Source: Anaerolineales bacterium (GTDB lineage: Bacteria; Chloroflexota; Anaerolineae; Anaerolineales; RBG-16-64-43). From it: DNA of 50,058 nucleotides. The DNA lies in assembly GCA_016928575.1 (NCBI GenBank), contig JAFGKK010000103.1, forward strand, positions 1-50,058, read 5' to 3'. Below, piece after piece: positions 3,549 through 43,512 of the stretch. The translations under genes and the position numbers were made by a program. A model generated the notes under the pieces. It was not told where the DNA came from, did not search any database, and saw nothing but the letters and a program-made list of their open reading frames with translations. Each line of letters begins with the position of its first letter. Position 1 is the first letter of the stretch.

Positions 3549-3679
3549 CCCGGTCCGACCGCGGGCGGTTGGAGCCTGTAAACCGGAGCAGACGGTCCCC
3601 ACACCGAACGGCTCCGGCCGACCGCGCGGCTTCCCCTTTTTCGGCAAGCGGCACATCCACAAACGAACAGGAGCAACCC

Positions 3680-6600
3680 ATGGGCGATTTCCTGGTGCGC
3701 GGCACCCTCGCAAAAGTCGATCCGGCCGTCGAGGAATTGATCCGGCTCGAATCCGAGCGGCAATACCGGAAGCTGATCCTGATCCCGTCGGAGAGCACAG
3801 CCCCGCGAGCAGTCCTCGAGGCGCTCGGCAGCCGGTTGCAGAACCTGTATGCCGAGGGGTATCCGGACGAGGAGACCCGCCGGATGAGCGAGGAGGAAAT
3901 CCTCGATTTTCCCGCGCGCTTGGGCCATTTCCGCCGCTACTCCGATCCGCGCTACTACAAGGGTGTGGAGTACGCCGACATCCTCGAAGCCCTGGCCCGC
4001 CGCCGGTGCGCCGAGGCGTTCGCCACGGAGGAGATCGCGGCCGACGGCATCTACGTCAACGTTCAGGCGCTTTCCGGCGCCCCGGCCAACACCGCGGTCT
4101 ACGACGCGCTGGTCAACCCGGGCGACACGGTGATGGGGTTGAACCTCCTGCACGGCGGCCACCTGACCCACGGGTCGCCCGTCAACCGCTCCGGCCGGTG
4201 GTACAAAATCGTCGCCTACACCATCGACCCGGCGACCGAGAAGCTCGATTACGACGCCATCGAAGCCCTCGCCTGCGAACACAAGCCGAAGATGATCATC
4301 GCCGGCTACACCTCCTATCCCTGGGCGGCGGATTGGAAACGCTTCCGACGGATCGCCGACGCCGTCGGGGCGTACCTCGTGGCCGACATCGCCCACGTCG
4401 CCGGGATGGTCGTCGCCGGCGCCTATCCCACCCCCGTCGGACACGCGCATGCGGTCACCTTCACCACCCACAAAACCCTGTGCGGCCCGCGCGGCGCCTG
4501 CATCCTCACCACCGATCCGGCCCTCGCGCGCAAGATCGACCGCGGCGTTTTTCCCGGCGAGCAGGGCGGCCCGCACGTCAACGTCTTCGCCGCGCTGGCG
4601 GTGATGTTCAAGATCGCCCGCACCGAAAAATTCCGCGAACTCCAGCACCAGATCGTCCGCAACGCCAAGCGGCTCTCGGATTCGCTCGAGGCGCGGGGCT
4701 TGAAAATCGCCTACGGCGGCACCGACACCCACCTCTTGAACGTGGACTGCAAAAGCATCCGAGCGCCGGACGGCACGCCGCTCTCGGGAGACATCGCCGC
4801 CCGCGTGCTCGACCTGGCCGGGATCGTCGCCAACCGCAACACCATCCCCGGTGATCCCTCGGCCGGCAAGGCGACCGGCGTGCGCATGGGCACGCCCTGG
4901 GCCACCCAGCGCGGGTTGCGCGAAGCGGACATGGACGCGCTGGCCGAGGTCATCACCCAGGTCCTGCAGGCGTGCCATCCGTTCCAATACAGCGGACGGA
5001 AAGGATCGCTGCTGCGGGCGCGGATCGACTTCACAGCGATGGAGGACGCGCGCATCCGGGTCCGGTCGCTGGCCGAAAAAGCCGGGATCGACTTCAAACC
5101 CGACGAGCACGGGTATCCGCATTTCTACTACCTCGACGACCCCCTGCCGAAGAAAAAGTTCACCGGCATTGCGGTGGCAGGACCACGGGCCGAGGATTTC
5201 CTCTACTGGGCGACGGTCAACGACGTGTACGCGTTGAAAACCGGCAAAAGACAGCCGACCAAGCTGCCGCTTCACGGGGGAATAACCGAGGCCGTGCTGG
5301 AACGGGCTGGCGCGGACGAATTCCTCCTTACCGTGCCCTCCGCCCGCGCCAACCTCGCCCTGGCATGGCTGCGGGCGCTGTCCGACGGATACGTGCGCTT
5401 CGACGACGATTTGGTCCGCAAGATTCCGGGGCCGGTGAGAATCGACCTCGCCGGCGGGTCTGCGCTGATGCCCAAGGCCGCCGGGCCCTCGGCGGACGCC
5501 ACCCGCCCCTACTGCCTCGCGCCGTTCTCGGCGCCCGCGCCCGGCCCGCTTCCTGAATTCGCATGGAAGGAACCCGCCGATCCGCCCCTGCGGTTCACTC
5601 CCCTGCACGCGGCCCATCTGGCCCTCGGCGCAAAAATGGTCCCCTTCGCCGGGTGGGAGATGCCGGTGTGGTACGACAGCGTGGTCGAGGAGCATTTGGC
5701 GGTTCGAAAGGCGGCCGGCTTGTTCGACGTCGCGCACATGGGCGTGTGGGAGGCGAGCGGGGATAGCGCCTGCGCCTTCCTCGACGCGGTGTGCGCCAAC
5801 GAGGTCGCCGCACTCGCGCCCGGCCAATCGCTCTACACCCATCTCCTCGACCCGGACGGCAAGGTCATCGACGATTTGATGATCTACCGCCGCGGGAACG
5901 GAGCCTACCTGATCGTGGTCAACGCCGCGAACGACGAGAAGGACTGGGCCTGGGTGAACGCCGTCCGCGAAGGAAAGGTGCGCATCGACCGCGATCGACC
6001 GGGATCGGAGGCGCCCGGGCGCAAGGGGGCCGTCCTGCGGAATTTGCGCGATCCCGCCAGCGACGCGGACAGGCGCGTGGACATCGCCCTCCAGGGGCCG
6101 AAATCGCTCGAGATCCTGCAGGCGCTCGGCGGCGACGCGGAGACCAAACGGTGGATCTCGCGCCTGGCGCGGACGGAGCTCTGCGACGCGGTCCTCGGAG
6201 GATTCGATCTGATCGTGGCCCGCACCGGATACACCGGCGAATCGGCGGCGTATGAATTGTTTGTTCATCCCGACCGCGCGGCGGATCTTTGGAGCTCGCT
6301 GATCAAGGCCGGAGCGCCGTTAGGATTGAAACCGGCGGGCTTGGGCGCGCGCGACAGCCTGCGCACCGAAGCCGGCCTGCCGCTCTACGGGCACGAATTT
6401 GCGGGTCCGCTGAACCTGGGCGTGGGCGACGGCGGCTTCGAATCCTACGTCAAACCGCACAAACCGTGGTTCATCGGACGGCAAGCGTTTCTGGAACAGG
6501 AACGCAACCGGAAAAGCGAGGTGGTGCGCTTCCGATTCAACCGCAAGGGCGTACGCATGGCCCATCCGGGCGACGTGGTGACGGACGAGGCGGATGTCGC

Positions 6601-6787
6601 GATCGGCAAAGTCACCTCCTGCGCGATCGACGGCGAGCGGTTTCTGCTCGGCCAAGCCTACCTGGAGAACGACTTCACCAAAGAAGGCCGCCCCATTATT
6701 GTGCGGGTGGGCGGACGGGAAAGCGGCGAAGCGGCGAAAGAGCCGGCAACCGTGCTCAGCCGGTTTCCAAAGAAGGCCAAAAAGTAA
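3680..6787 (+). CDS. Serine hydroxymethyltransferase - aminomethyltransferase (GlyA-GcvT) fusion
   Basis: A 1035-residue fusion. Residues 1 to about 455 are a serine hydroxymethyltransferase: LILIPSESTAPRAV substrate loop and the PLP lysine Lys265 in TFTTHKTLCGPRGA. Residues from about 637 to the end are a GcvT glycine-cleavage T-protein (TPLHAAHLALGAKMVPFAGW, FDVAHMG, ARTGYTGE, LGARDSLRTEAGLPLYGHE). Between them, residues 494-600 (FTGIAVAGPRAEDFLYWATV onward) look like a second, decayed copy of the GcvT folate-binding part. The fusion would couple glycine/serine interconversion with methylene-tetrahydrofolate formation. ATG 3680 follows an AGGAG site; the frame upstream to 3569 is not coding. 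No gcvH or gcvP is in the window. Confidence 0.92.
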   Translation: MGDFLVRGTLAKVDPAVEELIRLESERQYRKLILIPSESTAPRAVLEALGSRLQNLYAEGYPDEETRRMSEEEILDFPARLGHFRRYSDPRYYKGVEYADILEALARRRCAEAFATEEIAADGIYVNVQALSGAPANTAVYDALVNPGDTVMGLNLLHGGHLTHGSPVNRSGRWYKIVAYTIDPATEKLDYDAIEALACEHKPKMIIAGYTSYPWAADWKRFRRIADAVGAYLVADIAHVAGMVVAGAYPTPVGHAHAVTFTTHKTLCGPRGACILTTDPALARKIDRGVFPGEQGGPHVNVFAALAVMFKIARTEKFRELQHQIVRNAKRLSDSLEARGLKIAYGGTDTHLLNVDCKSIRAPDGTPLSGDIAARVLDLAGIVANRNTIPGDPSAGKATGVRMGTPWATQRGLREADMDALAEVITQVLQACHPFQYSGRKGSLLRARIDFTAMEDARIRVRSLAEKAGIDFKPDEHGYPHFYYLDDPLPKKKFTGIAVAGPRAEDFLYWATVNDVYALKTGKRQPTKLPLHGGITEAVLERAGADEFLLTVPSARANLALAWLRALSDGYVRFDDDLVRKIPGPVRIDLAGGSALMPKAAGPSADATRPYCLAPFSAPAPGPLPEFAWKEPADPPLRFTPLHAAHLALGAKMVPFAGWEMPVWYDSVVEEHLAVRKAAGLFDVAHMGVWEASGDSACAFLDAVCANEVAALAPGQSLYTHLLDPDGKVIDDLMIYRRGNGAYLIVVNAANDEKDWAWVNAVREGKVRIDRDRPGSEAPGRKGAVLRNLRDPASDADRRVDIALQGPKSLEILQALGGDAETKRWISRLARTELCDAVLGGFDLIVARTGYTGESAAYELFVHPDRAADLWSSLIKAGAPLGLKPAGLGARDSLRTEAGLPLYGHEFAGPLNLGVGDGGFESYVKPHKPWFIGRQAFLEQERNRKSEVVRFRFNRKGVRMAHPGDVVTDEADVAIGKVTSCAIDGERFLLGQAYLENDFTKEGRPIIVRVGGRESGEAAKEPATVLSRFPKKAKK

Positions 6788-38360: not shown

Positions 38361-40913
38361 TCACGCCGCCGCCGGCAGCAATCCGCCGGCGGCGACCCAC
38401 TCCATCCCCGGCAGGGGATCCTGGCGAATCCCGTCGAGCTCGGCGAGGATCGCGGCGCGGTCGCAGCCGGCCGGGACGGCCAGGCTCTCGAGCATGCGCA
38501 GGAACAGCTCGCGGTAGCGGACGGGATCCGGCGCGTCGGTTTCGCGCCAGAGGTCGTAGGGCCGTGCGCTGCCCCCGCGCGTGAGCACGAACTCGACCGC
38601 CTCGCCCGGCGAAAGGTGCACCCCGCTCGCCGCCAGCTCGCGCGCCGCCAGCGCCACCGGCAAATTCGCGCGGTATTCCTCCGGCGGGTGCGAGATGCGG
38701 TGCAGGACGGCGAGCTGGTGCGGCGGAACCTCGCCGCGCCGCAGTTCGGCCAGCTTCCTGCGCGCGACCGCAAACACCTCCGCCAGGCGCGCGCGGTATT
38801 CGGACGCGTTCTGCGCGCGGGCCAGGATTTCGAGCATCTCGGCCTGCGCCTCGCGGATCCAGCGGATGGTGTCGTGGCGGCGGGCTTCGATCCCGCGCAT
38901 TTTGATCTTGCCGTCCTCGAACGCGCCGAAGTAGCGGTTGGCCACCGGGTTGGCCGCATATTGGCGCGAGGGCAGGAACACCAGCCAGCGGTAGAGCCCT
39001 TCGATGTCGATCCGCACGCCGGTTTCGCGCCCGATCTCCTCCACCAGCGCCTGATGGTCGGCGTCGGACGAGCCCGGCTTGTGGACCCACAGCGCATCGG
39101 TCAGCGCGTGCAGGAAGAGATAGCCGCGCTCCTCGGCGATCTCCTTGGCGCGCAGAAGCGTATCCCGCCCGCAGGCGGTGGTGGATTCATGGGCCTCGAT
39201 CCGCCCGAAACGCGCGTTCTTGTAGCCGAGGTACCCGAAGCAGGTCACCAGCAGCCATTTAAGCGCCACCTGCCGCCGTCTCAGCACCTCGCGCTCGGGC
39301 CCCTCGGGCAGTACGCGCGCCGCGCGTTTGAGCGCCAAGCGCTTCTCGAGCAGCGGGGCGAGCGTGAGCGGGACGATCCCCTTGCGGCATTGGCACACAG
39401 CGTAGCCGATCTCGGGGATGATCGCCGGGTTCGCATTCCCCTTCTCCCCACCCGTCGCGGGCTCCGACCTAACCCCTACTCCCCCTTCCCCTGTCTCCCC
39501 TCCCATCGCGGACTCCGACCTAACCCCTACTCCCCCTTCCCCTCTCCCCCTTCCCGTAGGGGCGCAGCGCTGCTGCGCCCTTACGGAAGGGGGAGAGGGG
39601 TGCCCGACGAAAGTCGGGCGGGGTAAGGGGGTTGGGTCAGCGTCCGGCAAGGGGTCGTGGGTAGGGGATGCGGGCGGATTCCGCGCGCCTTCCGGCGCTC
39701 GGGATACACACTGCGGGCACGTCCGCCCGACCGTCTCGGCCGAGAGGTTGTATTTGACCATCAGGCTCGGGTACATCGAGGCGAAATCCAGCTCGAGCAC
39801 GTGCTCGTAGAGTCCCGGCTCGGGCTGGAAGGTCAGCCCGCCCTTGTCGCCGCGCACCAAGTCGAGGGCGGTCTTGAAATCCTCCGGCATCCGCTTGCGG
39901 AAGGGAATCAGCCATCCGCGGCGGTAAGCCTCGGCCGTCTGCATCGCGCTGATCCCCGTGCCGGAGGAGGTGCGCGCCACCTGCTGCAGCGGCTGGAGCG
40001 TGGTGCGGGAGAGTTCGACCAGACCGTCGAGCCCGTACTCGTCGGCCAGGAACGCGGTCTGGCGGTCGATGTGCAGGCGGCCGAAGAGCCAGACCGAGGC
40101 GGCGCGGTGGACGATTCTCCCGTAGGAGAAGTAGGAGCGCTCGGGCTTGCGCAGCACGCCGCGGCGCACGTCGCGGTTGAGCGGCAGGTCCGCGCCGCAC
40201 TTGTGCGCCAGGCGCAGGAGTGCGGGGAGCAGGAACGAATCGCCCCAGGCGGTGAGCAGAACGTCGGGATCGTATTCCAGAAGCGCGCCGCGCACCGCCC
40301 CGACCAGGGCGCGCGGATCGTCCCAGGCGCAGGTCCGGGTGTCGAGTTCCGGTGCGGCGATCTCGAGCGGCGCGCGGTAGCCGCGCGACGGATCGCGCAG
40401 TTCGCCCGTCTGGCGCAGGGTGAGTACGCGGAACGGCGGCGGCGCGGCCTCCAGGTCCCAACGGGTCTGGGCGGTGGAGACGGAGAGCACCCGCGTCCCT
40501 TCCAGGGTGAACTCGCACTCGGCGAGCGGGAACACGCCGCGCTCGACGCAATAGACCATCGCCGGGTCGAGGTCGGCGTTGTAGAAGGCCAGGGCGGGCC
40601 AGCGCGCGAGCGCCTCGCGCACCGCGGCGCGGTAGGCGAGCGGGCCCGGCGCGGCGACGGACAGCAGGTCGATCTCCTCGCCGCGGTGGATCTCGAAGCG
40701 GCGCTCCCGGCGCAGGCGGAGTTCCGGCTTCCACCCGGCGATTTCCTGCCACGCCGCGCGCAGCTCGGCGTTCTTCCCAGCGGCCAGGAAGCTCATCGGC
40801 AAAGGATCGATCACGCGCCGCGCGCGTCCGCCCCCGGCCTTCAGCCACAGAACCATGCCTTCGGAAGAGGGATAAAGGTCGAGGAGAAAAGCGTGGGAGC
40901 GTTCGGCGGTCAT
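38361..40913 (-). CDS. Family B DNA polymerase lacking recognisable exonuclease motifs, with repeat-derived insert
   Basis: The 850-residue B-family polymerase has motif A LELDFASMYPSLMVKYN (Asp376), motif B VALKWLLVTCFGYLGYKNAR (Lys552) and motif C HALTDALWV. In motif C the usual D-T-D reads L-T-D, so only one Asp (Asp606) remains. The exo I D-x-E and FD-type exo motifs cannot be found in the N-terminal half, which suggests no proofreading. A zinc-ribbon-like CPQC (399-402) ... CQC (507-509) is split by an 80-residue low-complexity insert made of repeat DNA (39437-39660). It lies downstream of the RecA-like gene with its SOS-type promoter. Confidence 0.9.
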   Translation of the reverse strand: MTAERSHAFLLDLYPSSEGMVLWLKAGGGRARRVIDPLPMSFLAAGKNAELRAAWQEIAGWKPELRLRRERRFEIHRGEEIDLLSVAAPGPLAYRAAVREALARWPALAFYNADLDPAMVYCVERGVFPLAECEFTLEGTRVLSVSTAQTRWDLEAAPPPFRVLTLRQTGELRDPSRGYRAPLEIAAPELDTRTCAWDDPRALVGAVRGALLEYDPDVLLTAWGDSFLLPALLRLAHKCGADLPLNRDVRRGVLRKPERSYFSYGRIVHRAASVWLFGRLHIDRQTAFLADEYGLDGLVELSRTTLQPLQQVARTSSGTGISAMQTAEAYRRGWLIPFRKRMPEDFKTALDLVRGDKGGLTFQPEPGLYEHVLELDFASMYPSLMVKYNLSAETVGRTCPQCVSRAPEGARNPPASPTHDPLPDADPTPLPRPTFVGHPSPPSVRAQQRCAPTGRGRGEGGVGVRSESAMGGETGEGGVGVRSEPATGGEKGNANPAIIPEIGYAVCQCRKGIVPLTLAPLLEKRLALKRAARVLPEGPEREVLRRRQVALKWLLVTCFGYLGYKNARFGRIEAHESTTACGRDTLLRAKEIAEERGYLFLHALTDALWVHKPGSSDADHQALVEEIGRETGVRIDIEGLYRWLVFLPSRQYAANPVANRYFGAFEDGKIKMRGIEARRHDTIRWIREAQAEMLEILARAQNASEYRARLAEVFAVARRKLAELRRGEVPPHQLAVLHRISHPPEEYRANLPVALAARELAASGVHLSPGEAVEFVLTRGGSARPYDLWRETDAPDPVRYRELFLRMLESLAVPAGCDRAAILAELDGIRQDPLPGMEWVAAGGLLPAAA
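39437..39660. repeat. Repeat insertion inside the polymerase gene (two 51-bp units plus hairpin)
   Basis: CTCCGACCTAACCCCTACTC recurs at 39462 and 39513, a 51-bp in-frame tandem that encodes a repeated GEGGVGVRSExAxGGEx unit of 17 residues. Next to it is a large hairpin (CCTCTCCCCCTTCCCGTA ... complementary arm near 39583-39600) with a core GCGCAGCGCTGCTGCGC. Related C-rich hairpins lie at 42580-42625 and 49988-50031. Confidence 0.85.
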
Positions 40914-41006
40914 GGGCGTGCGCCTCCCGCCGCGGGGAAATCACCGATCCAGAAGGAACCGGGCATATTGCGGAATCGCATGGGTCCATTCCTGCAGACA
41001 GAGTCG

Positions 41007-41961
41007 TCAGGAGCGGCGCGCCTCATCCCCCAGCCGCCGCAGGTCGAGCCGCCGCAGCGCGCCCCAATCCTGCCGGCCGGAAACGGGATGCGGCGGGACG
41101 GAGCCCAGCCGCCGTTCGAGCGCCGCGGCCGCGCGGCTCCACAGGCTGCGGCCGCGGCGCCGCAGCAGAAACCCGTTCTCCCCGTGGGCGATGTACTCGC
41201 TCATCGTCGGCGCGTCGTAGGCGAACACGGCGCAGCCGCGCCCCAGCGCTTCGAGGAAGGTCAGCCCCACGCCCTCGGAGGTCCCGCGGGGCGAGGAAGA
41301 TGTTCGCCCGGCCGGCCACGTCCGCATACTCGCCGCGGGGGATCAACCCCTCGGCCGTGCGGACCTCGACCCGGGTGTTTCCGATCCGGTCCCCGGGGGA
41401 GAAATCCAGCGCCGCCGGCACGCGGTCCTGCGCGGTGCGGAAGACTATCAGCCGGTCAACCGCGAGCGCCCGGCAAAATCGGTCCAGGAAGTCCATTCCC
41501 ACCAGCCCGCTCCGGTTCCAGTAAAAGAGAACCCGCCCGCCGCTCCAATCCGCCGGCGGGAGATCGTCCGGCGGGAAATAGCGCACCGCGAGCGTTTCCA
41601 GACCGGCCGCCTTTGCGCGGCGGCCGACCTCCCGCGAGAAGGCGACCACCCGCAAGGATTTCGGCAGGCGCCGCCACCAATCCTCCTCGTAGCCGCGGGC
41701 CTCGTCCCACATCGGGATCCACACGACGCGTAATGCCGGATCGGCCGCCAGCTCCGGGGGCGGCGGCAGCTGGAAGAACACGCGCACAGGCGACCGCCGC
41801 TGGGCGGCCGTCAGCGCCGGCAGCGCTTCGCCGCCCCACGCGATCGGCTCAAAGCGGACATAAGGCCGCAACGGGTCGGCCACCAGCAATTGCTGCGCCG
41901 GGCTTTGGCGGATGTGCCACTCGAGTCCGAAAATCGGGACACTGGGAATCGTCACCGGCAA
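41007..41961 (-). pseudogene. Glycosyltransferase (GT4-like), frameshifted by one base
   Basis: The first frame (41961 down to about 41290) reads a GT-B N-domain (VFFQLPPPPELA, WIPMWDEARGYEEDW, FYWNRSGLVGMDFLDRF) and ends NIFLAPR. The sequence continues in another frame as GTSEGVGLTFLEALGRG, CAVFAYDAPTMSEYIAHGEN, GFLL, the E-x7-E donor-binding region of GT4 enzymes, to 41007. One C is missing in the run of four (41288-41291), so this is a homopolymer frameshift: sequencing error or real mutation. It would transfer a sugar to a lipid or glycan; its presence between DNA-repair-like genes is odd. Confidence 0.82.
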
Positions 41962-42120
41962 CCTTCCTGTCCTCCCTCCTCTTCCTGGAGCTGTCGACCA
42001 AGAGCCACATGCCGCATTTGAATCTTCATGCCCGCACCGTCTCCCCCGGCCCGACCCACGCCGGGGCAGGCTCGCGCAACGGGAGTGTTTCCAGCGGGCA
42101 TACAGTCGTTGAGCTCCTGG

Positions 42121-42145
42121 ATTCCCGCTTAACCCACGCGGGAAT
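42121..42145. repeat. Short palindromic intergenic element
   Basis: ATTCCCGC (42121-42128) and GCGGGAAT (42138-42145) are inverted, followed by GACGG. The form CTGGATTCCCGCTT...GCGGGAATGAC is a frequent intergenic palindrome in environmental bacterial DNA. Confidence 0.55.
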
Positions 42146-42238
42146 GACGGACAGACGACTGCAGGGCATCCTCTACAAACGCCGTCTTCCCGTTTAATCG
42201 ACGGCCCCAGAAACAGGAGGCGGTAGGTACATTTTAAC

Positions 42239-42520
42239 CTACGCTTCGCCCGGCCCAGCGTCCTTCCCGCGCTCCAGCGCGTCCACCCGCTCGGCCAGCC
42301 GGGCGTACGCGCCAGCCACGCCGATCAGCATCCCGAGCAGGATGACTTGCATCGGCAGCGGGTCGGCGGCCATCGAAGAGGCCGCCAGCCGGCGGCGCGC
42401 CAGGGCGAACAGCTCGTCGAAGATCTTTTGGTCGGCGCGGCTGAGCGCGCGGCGGTAGCGCGCCAGGCGCTGTTCGGCCTGCGCCAACTGTTGGGTGATG
42501 GAAACCAGGGTCCGTCCCAT
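42239..42520 (-). CDS. Small coiled-coil/single-helix protein in the RecA-like operon
   Basis: The 93-residue protein has an N-terminal helical heptad-like stretch (SITQQLAQAEQRLARYRRAL), a middle basic helix, one hydrophobic segment (PMQVILLGMLIGVAGAYARL) and a short charged tail. No family recognised. ATG 42520 follows GGAGG, and the upstream gene's stop is 3 nt away, so the two genes are translationally linked. It could tether or regulate its partner at the membrane, but nothing in the sequence proves this. Confidence 0.7.
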   Translation of the reverse strand: MGRTLVSITQQLAQAEQRLARYRRALSRADQKIFDELFALARRRLAASSMAADPLPMQVILLGMLIGVAGAYARLAERVDALERGKDAGPGEA

Positions 42521-42523
42521 GAT

Positions 42524-43288
42524 TCAACCTCCTGACCTCGCCTCCTCTCCCCGCCCTTCTCCCTGACAAACGCCGGGACGAGGACACCCCTCTCCCCCTC
42601 CCCTTAAGGGGATGGGGAGAGGGGTTGGGGGTGTGGAGGAGAGGTCCGTCATCGGCGGCAGCGGATGGCGGAAGTCCCGATCCTCCCCGGCGCCTGTCCC
42701 TGCTTGGCGGGAGCGCCGCCCGTAGGATTCGAATCCGGGAAGCGCCGGCGGGGGCGGCGGCGCGGGATTCTCCAACTCCGGCCCAACGCGCCGGTCGGCC
42801 CGGCGCAGGATTCCGGAATAGAAGCCTTCGCGGTCCGCGACGCGTTCGGAACGCGGCGGGCGCAGGGTGACCGCCACCGGAACTTCCCGGCTGCGGCGGC
42901 GCAGCACGGGCCATAGCGCATTGAGCAGCCGGCGCGCTTCGGTGATCGGCACATTTTCGTCGTAGAACGTATCCAGCAGGTGTAGGATCACCAGCGGCGC
43001 GGCCTCCGCAGGCAGCGAAAGAATCCGCTCGGCCATCTGGTGGCAGGTGAAGGCGCGCGAAATGTGGATCCGGTCCAGGACCGGCTCGGGAGGCTGTCCG
43101 AGCCGGGCGGCGTACTCCGCCAGCCACAGCGCGTCGAAGCGGTTGCCGCCGTCGATCACCCATACCGGCCGCCGCAGGGCGATCTGGGCGGTCAGCGCGA
43201 GCGCCAGCGGGACGGAATCCGGCCCGTAGAGCGCGGCCAAGCCGGCCGGCGCCGGTTGCGAGACATCGAGCACGCGTTCATTCTCCAT
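42524..43288 (-). CDS. RecA/RadA-like protein without a Walker A lysine (ImuA-like), SOS-type promoter
   Basis: About 254 residues. Residues 1-160 look like a RecA-family core: GPDSVPLALALTAQIALRRP at the place of Walker A but with no G-x-x-G-K-T/S, then PVWVIDGGNRFDALWLAEYA, IHISRAFTCHQMAERI and a Walker B-like LVILHLLDTFYDENV. The C-terminal 80 residues are Pro/Arg/Gly-rich and partly encoded by C-rich repeat DNA (42575-42630), so the real domain probably ends near residue 170. This pattern matches ImuA-type SOS proteins that carry a RecA fold but no classic ATPase site. ATG 43288 lies 6 nt after the -10 box. Confidence 0.75.
   Translation of the reverse strand: MENERVLDVSQPAPAGLAALYGPDSVPLALALTAQIALRRPVWVIDGGNRFDALWLAEYAARLGQPPEPVLDRIHISRAFTCHQMAERILSLPAEAAPLVILHLLDTFYDENVPITEARRLLNALWPVLRRRSREVPVAVTLRPPRSERVADREGFYSGILRRADRRVGPELENPAPPPPPALPGFESYGRRSRQAGTGAGEDRDFRHPLPPMTDLSSTPPTPLPIPLRGGGEGCPRPGVCQGEGRGEEARSGG
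42575..42630. repeat. C-rich hairpin repeat within the RecA-like 3' end
   Basis: CACCCCTCTCCCCCTCCCCT and its inverted partner GGGGATGGGGAGAGGGGTTG form a hairpin of the same class as 39437-39660 and 49988-50031. It encodes the PPTPLPIP...GGGEG tail of the RecA-like protein. Confidence 0.65.
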
Positions 43289-43294
43289 GCCCAC

Positions 43295-43323
43295 AGTATG
43301 CAGAACATTTGTTCTAGTGTCAA
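43295..43323 (-). promoter_or_regulatory. SOS-type promoter: TTGACA, LexA-like box GAACATTTGTTC, CATACT
   Basis: On the minus strand, -35 TTGACA (43323-43318), a 17-bp spacer, and -10 CATACT (43300-43295). The palindrome AGAACATTTGTTCT (43302-43315) fills the spacer and matches the Gram-positive-type LexA box GAAC-N4-GTTC. Repressor would thus occlude RNA polymerase. The ATG at 43288 begins 6 nt after the -10, so the mRNA would be leaderless. Confidence 0.8.
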
Positions 43324-43355
43324 GGGGGAAGAAACGCCGATGCGAAAAAAAGAAG

Positions 43356-43392
43356 TTCCCGCGTAAAGCATCGGTAAATTTTTACGCGGGAA
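43356..43392 (-). terminator. Rho-independent terminator of the large secreted protein gene
   Basis: TTCCCGCGTAAA (43356-43367) pairs perfectly with TTTACGCGGGAA (43381-43392) over a 13-nt loop. On the minus strand a CTTCTTTTTTT tract follows. It ends the 43513-49827 gene ahead of the SOS promoter. Confidence 0.82.
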
Positions 43393-43512
43393 AAGAACTA
43401 ACCGGATTTTTGCAGGGCTGCGAGCTTTGCCTGGGCGGAAATCGACCGGTCCAACTATCCGGTCCCGATCACATTTTTTTTAATGGGCCAATTCCGGCTT
43501 CCACATGATGGC

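Follow-up and report, generated by a model that had tools for sequence, protein, structure and literature searches.

We analysed a 50,058-nucleotide stretch of DNA from an Anaerolineales bacterium (contig JAFGKK010000103.1; hereafter the window) and found on its minus strand an operon that, judged from its sequence, is a bacterial PolB2 mutasome, a known three-part error-prone DNA-copying machine made up of the RadA-like protein iRadA, the small protein PPB2 and the family B DNA polymerase PolB2. The gene identities and their order, the motif losses, the conservation of the LexA box and the LexA box of the host itself are seen directly; we infer with confidence that the operon is repressed by LexA, induced by DNA damage and used for mutagenic bypass of lesions. 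The switch at its start is very probably an SOS switch. The association of the three genes was described by comparative genomics (Makarova 2014; PMC4104785), in a study that also placed lexA in this predicted operon for some bacteria. The PolB2 mutasome was later modelled by Timinskas 2025, with iRadA-PPB2-PolB2 as the sole gene order in bacteria, possibly with other genes in between (PMC11791011). An earlier reading of the window from the letters alone (the sequence-only reading) had proposed a distinct new form of damage-induced mutagenesis; this does not hold, as the locus belongs to the system known from the 2014 and 2025 studies. Our analysis adds evidence, at the level of the operator, that LexA controls a bacterial PolB2 operon: until now the link between bacterial PolB2 and SOS consisted only of neighbouring lexA genes, and here it is a conserved promoter operator.

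The polymerase gene (polB2, 38361–40913, minus strand) encodes an 850-amino-acid protein that matches PF00136 at 1.8e-29. Its profile strongly resembled archaeal PolB (6e-81 against the Pyrobaculum enzyme, 5mdn), in contrast to E. coli Pol II (1e-21), and the predicted model was likewise closest to archaeal PolB, far ahead of Pol II. The acidic residues of both Exo I and Exo II are replaced, in the profile aligned to 5mdn as well as in the row of the window protein, which bears out the claim of a family B polymerase without exonuclease motifs downstream of the RecA-fold gene. In addition, the first Asp of DxD (motif C) is replaced in every PolB2 sequence aligned, the window motif being HALTDALWV; most members of the family have lost this Asp and keep the second. 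Together, these losses would fit a cassette that is damage-induced but contains a catalytically dead PolB2, acting as a structural or regulatory subunit, which was the first proposal for the family (2008/2014; PMC4104785). We find this quite unlikely, because the motif A catalytic Asp (D376; 39786–39788, minus strand) and the second motif C Asp (D606; 39096–39098, minus strand) are both invariant in 17 of 17 sequences, and because archaeal PolB2, in which this Asp is substituted in the same way, does polymerize DNA and is required for targeted mutagenesis (PMC11791011). The window protein also has a candidate D(K/R) motif for contact with PPB2, D356-K357 in RGDKGGL, with the Asp invariant in 17 sequences; it was equated with the D(K/R) of Sulfolobus by its position before motif A, in an alignment without an archaeal sequence. 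The C-terminus of PolB2 (...RQDPLPGM) is a weak match to the beta-clamp motif that some members of the family carry in iRadA or PolB2.

The first gene of the operon (42524–43288, minus strand; ATG at 43288, with an alternative GTG start at 43294) encodes iRadA, a RadA/Rad51-like protein without the N-terminal domain or Walker A. Scanning it against Pfam and NCBIfam gave no match to either. A family profile built from 15 homologues, on the other hand, matched archaeal RadA and Rad51 (best 9e-10), and the AlphaFold model, with a core predicted local distance difference test score (pLDDT) above 90, has the RadA/Rad51 core fold, RadA and Rad51 being its top solved-structure matches. The Walker A stretch reads GPDSVPLAL, with no GK[ST] and the lysine lost, as the sequence-only reading had noted. 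Past about residue 170 the C-terminal tail is variable and repeat-derived in the alignment, and a check for beta-clamp motifs found Q-x-x-LF at the iRadA C-terminus in relatives but not in the window. The iRadA gene is followed directly by ppb2 (42239–42520, minus strand), encoding a 93-amino-acid protein of the arCOG07300 type. It begins with MGRT, the defining PPB2 motif (PMC11791011), as do 13 of its 14 homologues (14 of 15 aligned sequences, the remaining one having MGNT). An inactive RadA-like protein, a PolB2 without exonuclease and, as their partner, a small helical protein bearing an MGRT arm are the described features of the PolB2 mutasome (PMC11791011).

These identities bear on the possibility that the system resembles ImuA-ImuB-DnaE2 or Pol II and that its RecA-fold protein is a relative of ImuA or SulA. 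Such a system shares with the locus the general analogy of a RecA-fold protein combined with an SOS-induced polymerase. It is extremely improbable here: the profile is that of RadA/Rad51 and not of bacterial RecA, the polymerase is much nearer archaeal PolB than Pol II by the scores given above, the exonuclease motifs of Pol II are not intact, no Y-family or ImuB domain was found in the genome, and PPB2 is present. Thus, of the RecA-like protein initially suggested, the RecA fold stands, and the likeness to RecA or ImuA gives way to RadA/Rad51. The analogy to ImuA-ImuB-DnaE2 is a general one, looser than that to RadA. The structure predictions agree with this for both proteins.

The promoter lies directly before the iRadA gene (43295–43323, minus strand) and consists of TTGACA, a 17-bp spacer and CATACT (TTGACA-CTAGAACAAATGTTCTG-CATACT). 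Its spacer contains the LexA (SOS) box GAACAAATGTTC at 43303–43314 (minus strand), in the arrangement TTGACA-N3-GAACAAATGTTC-N2-CATACT from 43323 to 43295, so that 12 of the 17 spacer bp are taken up by the box; CATACT is followed by GTGGGC and then ATG. The promoter was read directly from the sequence, as it had been in the sequence-only reading, and a promoter scan of 40850–43480 found it to be the sole sigma-70-like promoter in that region. Because the -10 element ends 6 bp before the ATG, we predict an iRadA mRNA with little or no leader. We noted that most of the LexA-controlled PolB2-operon promoters compared have only ~6–14 nt between the end of the -10 and the start codon, a spacing that hints at transcripts with a very short leader or none.

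GAACN4GTTC occurs once in the window, and about one such site per 50 kb is expected by chance; therefore the presence of the box alone proves nothing, and it might be a chance match in an operon outside LexA control. That explanation appears very unlikely, as a perfect box is kept in most PolB2 operons, the box of the window lies in the spacer between -35 and -10, and lexA has a promoter of the same architecture. Of 18 PolB2 operons, 16 have a perfect box in the 650 bp upstream of iRadA, against 0.16 expected from the box density outside this zone in the same loci. The motif in front of lexA itself is a perfect GAACN4GTTC in 15 of 16 genomes (the window genome and 14 of 15 relatives), with a single mismatch in the remaining one, and nearly all of these boxes lie between a TTGAC-type -35 and a -10. 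The host LexA thus has the motif found at the operon in its own promoter. In pattern searches of the 3.84-Mb assembly, TTGACA 3–6 nt before GAACN4GTTC occurred at only two sites, and few convincing promoters were seen among the listed genomic GAACN4GTTC sites besides those of lexA, the iRadA operon and one site on contig C66. The latter (G000:C66:15567-15588, locus L102), which is the other TTGACA-N3-6-GAACN4GTTC site, stands ahead of an uncharacterised, probably membrane-bound protein. An mraZ-like gene has a box identical to GAACAAATGTTC across its start codon (G000:C17:36573-36584, locus L038); this may be due to chance.

The promoter is closely conserved in the nearest relatives. Over the 39 nt that run from TTGACA through ATGG, a congener (L105) agrees with the window at 39 of 39 positions and a member of another genus (L048) at 38 of 39; the 142 bp just upstream have largely diverged and align only weakly (scores of 19, 15 and 26, with maxima of 14, 15 and 21 after shuffling). 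A third genus of the same family (L140) has TTGAGG-TTAGAACATATGTTCTA-TATACT with a perfect box, 164 bp upstream of iRadA. The order iRadA-PPB2-PolB2 was found in every operon examined with enough upstream sequence, and in a more distant locus from Poribacteria (L107) lexA itself lies upstream of iRadA. The conservation of the gene pair and of the box, together with the motif at lexA, supports what the sequence-only reading had proposed, namely that the RecA-fold protein and the polymerase function as a pair, that they are under LexA (SOS) control and that they serve in DNA synthesis that is induced by damage and probably mutagenic. For LexA control this support from comparison is strong.

Outside the family of the window, most operons have the box 500–600 bp upstream of iRadA, in the promoter of an additional gene. 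This gene encodes a protein of ~140 amino acids with a C-terminal LuxR-type (GerE) domain and an N-terminal part that is possibly ribbon-helix-helix-like. It precedes iRadA in L049, L051, L053, L054, L055, L056, L057, L059, L060, L062 and L063, with a LexA box in its promoter in all of these loci except L057. In 28 genomes, 11 of 13 full-length matches to the LuxR-type profile adjoin polB2. The gene is a candidate fourth member of the operon that seems to travel with it in relatives; it is absent from the family of the window, where the box lies directly before iRadA. The LuxR-type gene is not mentioned in the main text of PMC11791011, and we found no description of it in the open-access literature. 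A scan of 400 bp upstream had given the impression that one family lacks boxes; this was rejected once a scan of whole loci found them ~500–600 bp upstream of iRadA.

Several observations weigh against reading the locus as a LexA-controlled mutasome operon. The GAACN4GTTC class has 53 sites genome-wide, mostly within genes. At recA of the window genome, nothing better than a one-mismatch site was seen close to the gene start, and several sites of that kind occur in 3.8 kb. The 16 operons with a box are not independent, and because the genomes are related the Poisson value for 16 of 18 should not be taken literally. One genome (G104) has no box upstream of iRadA, and in another (G176) the box, which sits in a -35/-10 pair, has one mismatch. 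Finally, PolB2 of the window may be cut off from the LexA promoter by an insert that lies between ppb2 and polB2.

This insert (40914–42238, minus strand; 1325 bp) is lineage-specific. None of the four family relatives examined, which represent two genera, has it; the ppb2 and polB2 genes of relatives overlap, and those of the window are 1325 bp apart. Its start (~42072–42194) resembles a dispersed repeat with ~36 partial copies elsewhere in the genome. It carries a glycosyltransferase-like gene (41007–41961, minus strand), the C-terminal part of which matches Glycos_transf_1 and the frame of which is broken near 41290; as the assembly consists of 137 contigs, the frameshift could be an assembly error. 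The sequence-only reading had recognized the glycosyltransferase, though not its frameshift, and had missed the 93-amino-acid gene at 42239–42520; its doubt about co-transcription to the polymerase gene was justified. Scanning 40850–43480, insert included, revealed no terminator-like site (loop limit 8) and no second promoter-like site in the insert. Since no terminator was found, read-through from the LexA promoter across the insert is possible. Our explanation supposes co-transcription as far as polB2 in the window genome; because of the 1.3-kb insert, this is its weakest step. The window is a natural example of a PolB2 operon interrupted between PPB2 and PolB2.

A second insertion lies within PolB2, where 88 in-frame codons of low-complexity repeat (residues 405–492; 39438–39701, minus strand) stand out in the alignment with relatives and in the model. 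It is placed in the loop between the CPxC and CxC pairs, is disordered in the model (pLDDT below 50 at 405–493) and is partly similar to other places in the genome. L048 has almost no insert in this loop, and the congener L105 has an unrelated one at the same place. The repeat is a marker of a loop that tolerates large insertions. The two inserts, one of them with a broken gene and not found in relatives, might be taken as signs that the operon is decaying in this genome and that polB2 is no longer expressed with iRadA and PPB2. We regard decay as unlikely: all three mutasome genes have open frames, match the degree of conservation seen in relatives and keep their invariant residues, the congener keeps its frame open despite a different insert in the same PolB2 loop, the promoter is unchanged to the base and the ppb2/polB2 insert contains no site that the terminator scan recognized.

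In the explanation that we favour, LexA bound between the -35 and -10 elements would keep the operon repressed. Upon DNA damage, active RecA would trigger self-cleavage of LexA, allowing the operon to be expressed. PolB2, which lacks proofreading and whose catalytic centre is altered but probably still active, would then extend DNA past lesions while bound to the RadA-like subunit, itself inactive, and to a trimer of PPB2. The expected outcome is damage-induced mutations, by analogy with the experiments on archaeal PolB2. The prediction of SOS control is directly testable, because the operator is conserved and the LexA box of the host is established from lexA itself.

We compared the locus with known systems. 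It agrees with the bacterial PolB2 mutasome (PMC4104785, PMC11791011) in having the same three genes in the same order, MGRT, the inactive RadA-like subunit, the loss of the exonuclease and of the first DxD Asp, and a link to LexA. The link differs in kind, consisting here of promoter operators and in the published cases of a neighbouring lexA gene. The window further adds the ppb2/polB2 insert and the PolB2 repeat insert, and most Anaerolineae relatives add the LuxR-type gene. The archaeal PolB2/Dpo2 operon of Sulfolobales, compared by description, has a homologous polymerase and partners (PMC7390963, PMC11791011). In Sulfolobus islandicus PolB2 is damage-inducible and needed for targeted mutagenesis (PMC11791011), but induction in Sulfolobales is tied to Orc1-2 rather than LexA (PMC7390963, PMC11791011). 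The E. coli Pol V mutasome (UmuD'2-UmuC-RecA) is also SOS-induced, multi-subunit and error-prone, with a Rad51/RecA-fold partner (an analogy from PMC11791011); its catalytic subunit, however, is of the Y family, its RecA is active and UmuD' is unrelated to PPB2. The ImuA-ImuB-DnaE2 mutasome likewise combines a RecA-fold protein and a polymerase in one cassette under SOS induction, but it uses a C-family polymerase together with an inactive Y-family protein, and no Y-family domain was detected in the window genome. E. coli DNA polymerase II (PolB) is an SOS-induced family B polymerase, too, yet it keeps proofreading, acts as a single subunit and is far less similar to the PolB2 profile than archaeal PolB is.

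The search for the Y-family domain (PF00817) was negative in the window genome, which is 97% complete, and positive in 11 of 14 control genomes. The domain was also not found in two other near-complete genomes and one incomplete genome of the family; the fifth has one. Mutual exclusion of PolB2 and Y-family polymerases across the class failed as a general rule, with Y-family polymerases in 13 of 19 PolB2-positive and 12 of 20 PolB2-negative genomes. Because of this lack of class-wide exclusion, and with no search made for DnaE2, we offer it only as a suggestion that PolB2 is the main SOS translesion polymerase of this lineage. Tentatively, and with more doubt than conviction, we extend this to a broader picture in which a LexA-controlled PolB2 mutasome operon, often with the undescribed LuxR-type first gene, is found Anaerolineae-wide, and the family of the window (Y-family polymerases not found in four of five genomes) relies on PolB2 as its main or sole dedicated polymerase for SOS translesion synthesis. 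This would point to a lineage in which PolB2 may take the place of Y-family polymerases.

Upstream of the LexA promoter, between it and the gene for a 2113-amino-acid RCC1-like repeat protein, an inverted repeat (CCCGCGTAAA...TTTACGCGGG) followed by a T run lies at ~43345–43400 on the minus strand. By appearance it is terminator-like, although the terminator scan, with its loop limit of 8, did not flag it. Elsewhere in the window, a frame of 1072 amino acids at 3569–6787 on the plus strand appears, by eye, to be a fusion in which a serine hydroxymethyltransferase is continued by a part resembling aminomethyltransferase (GcvT).

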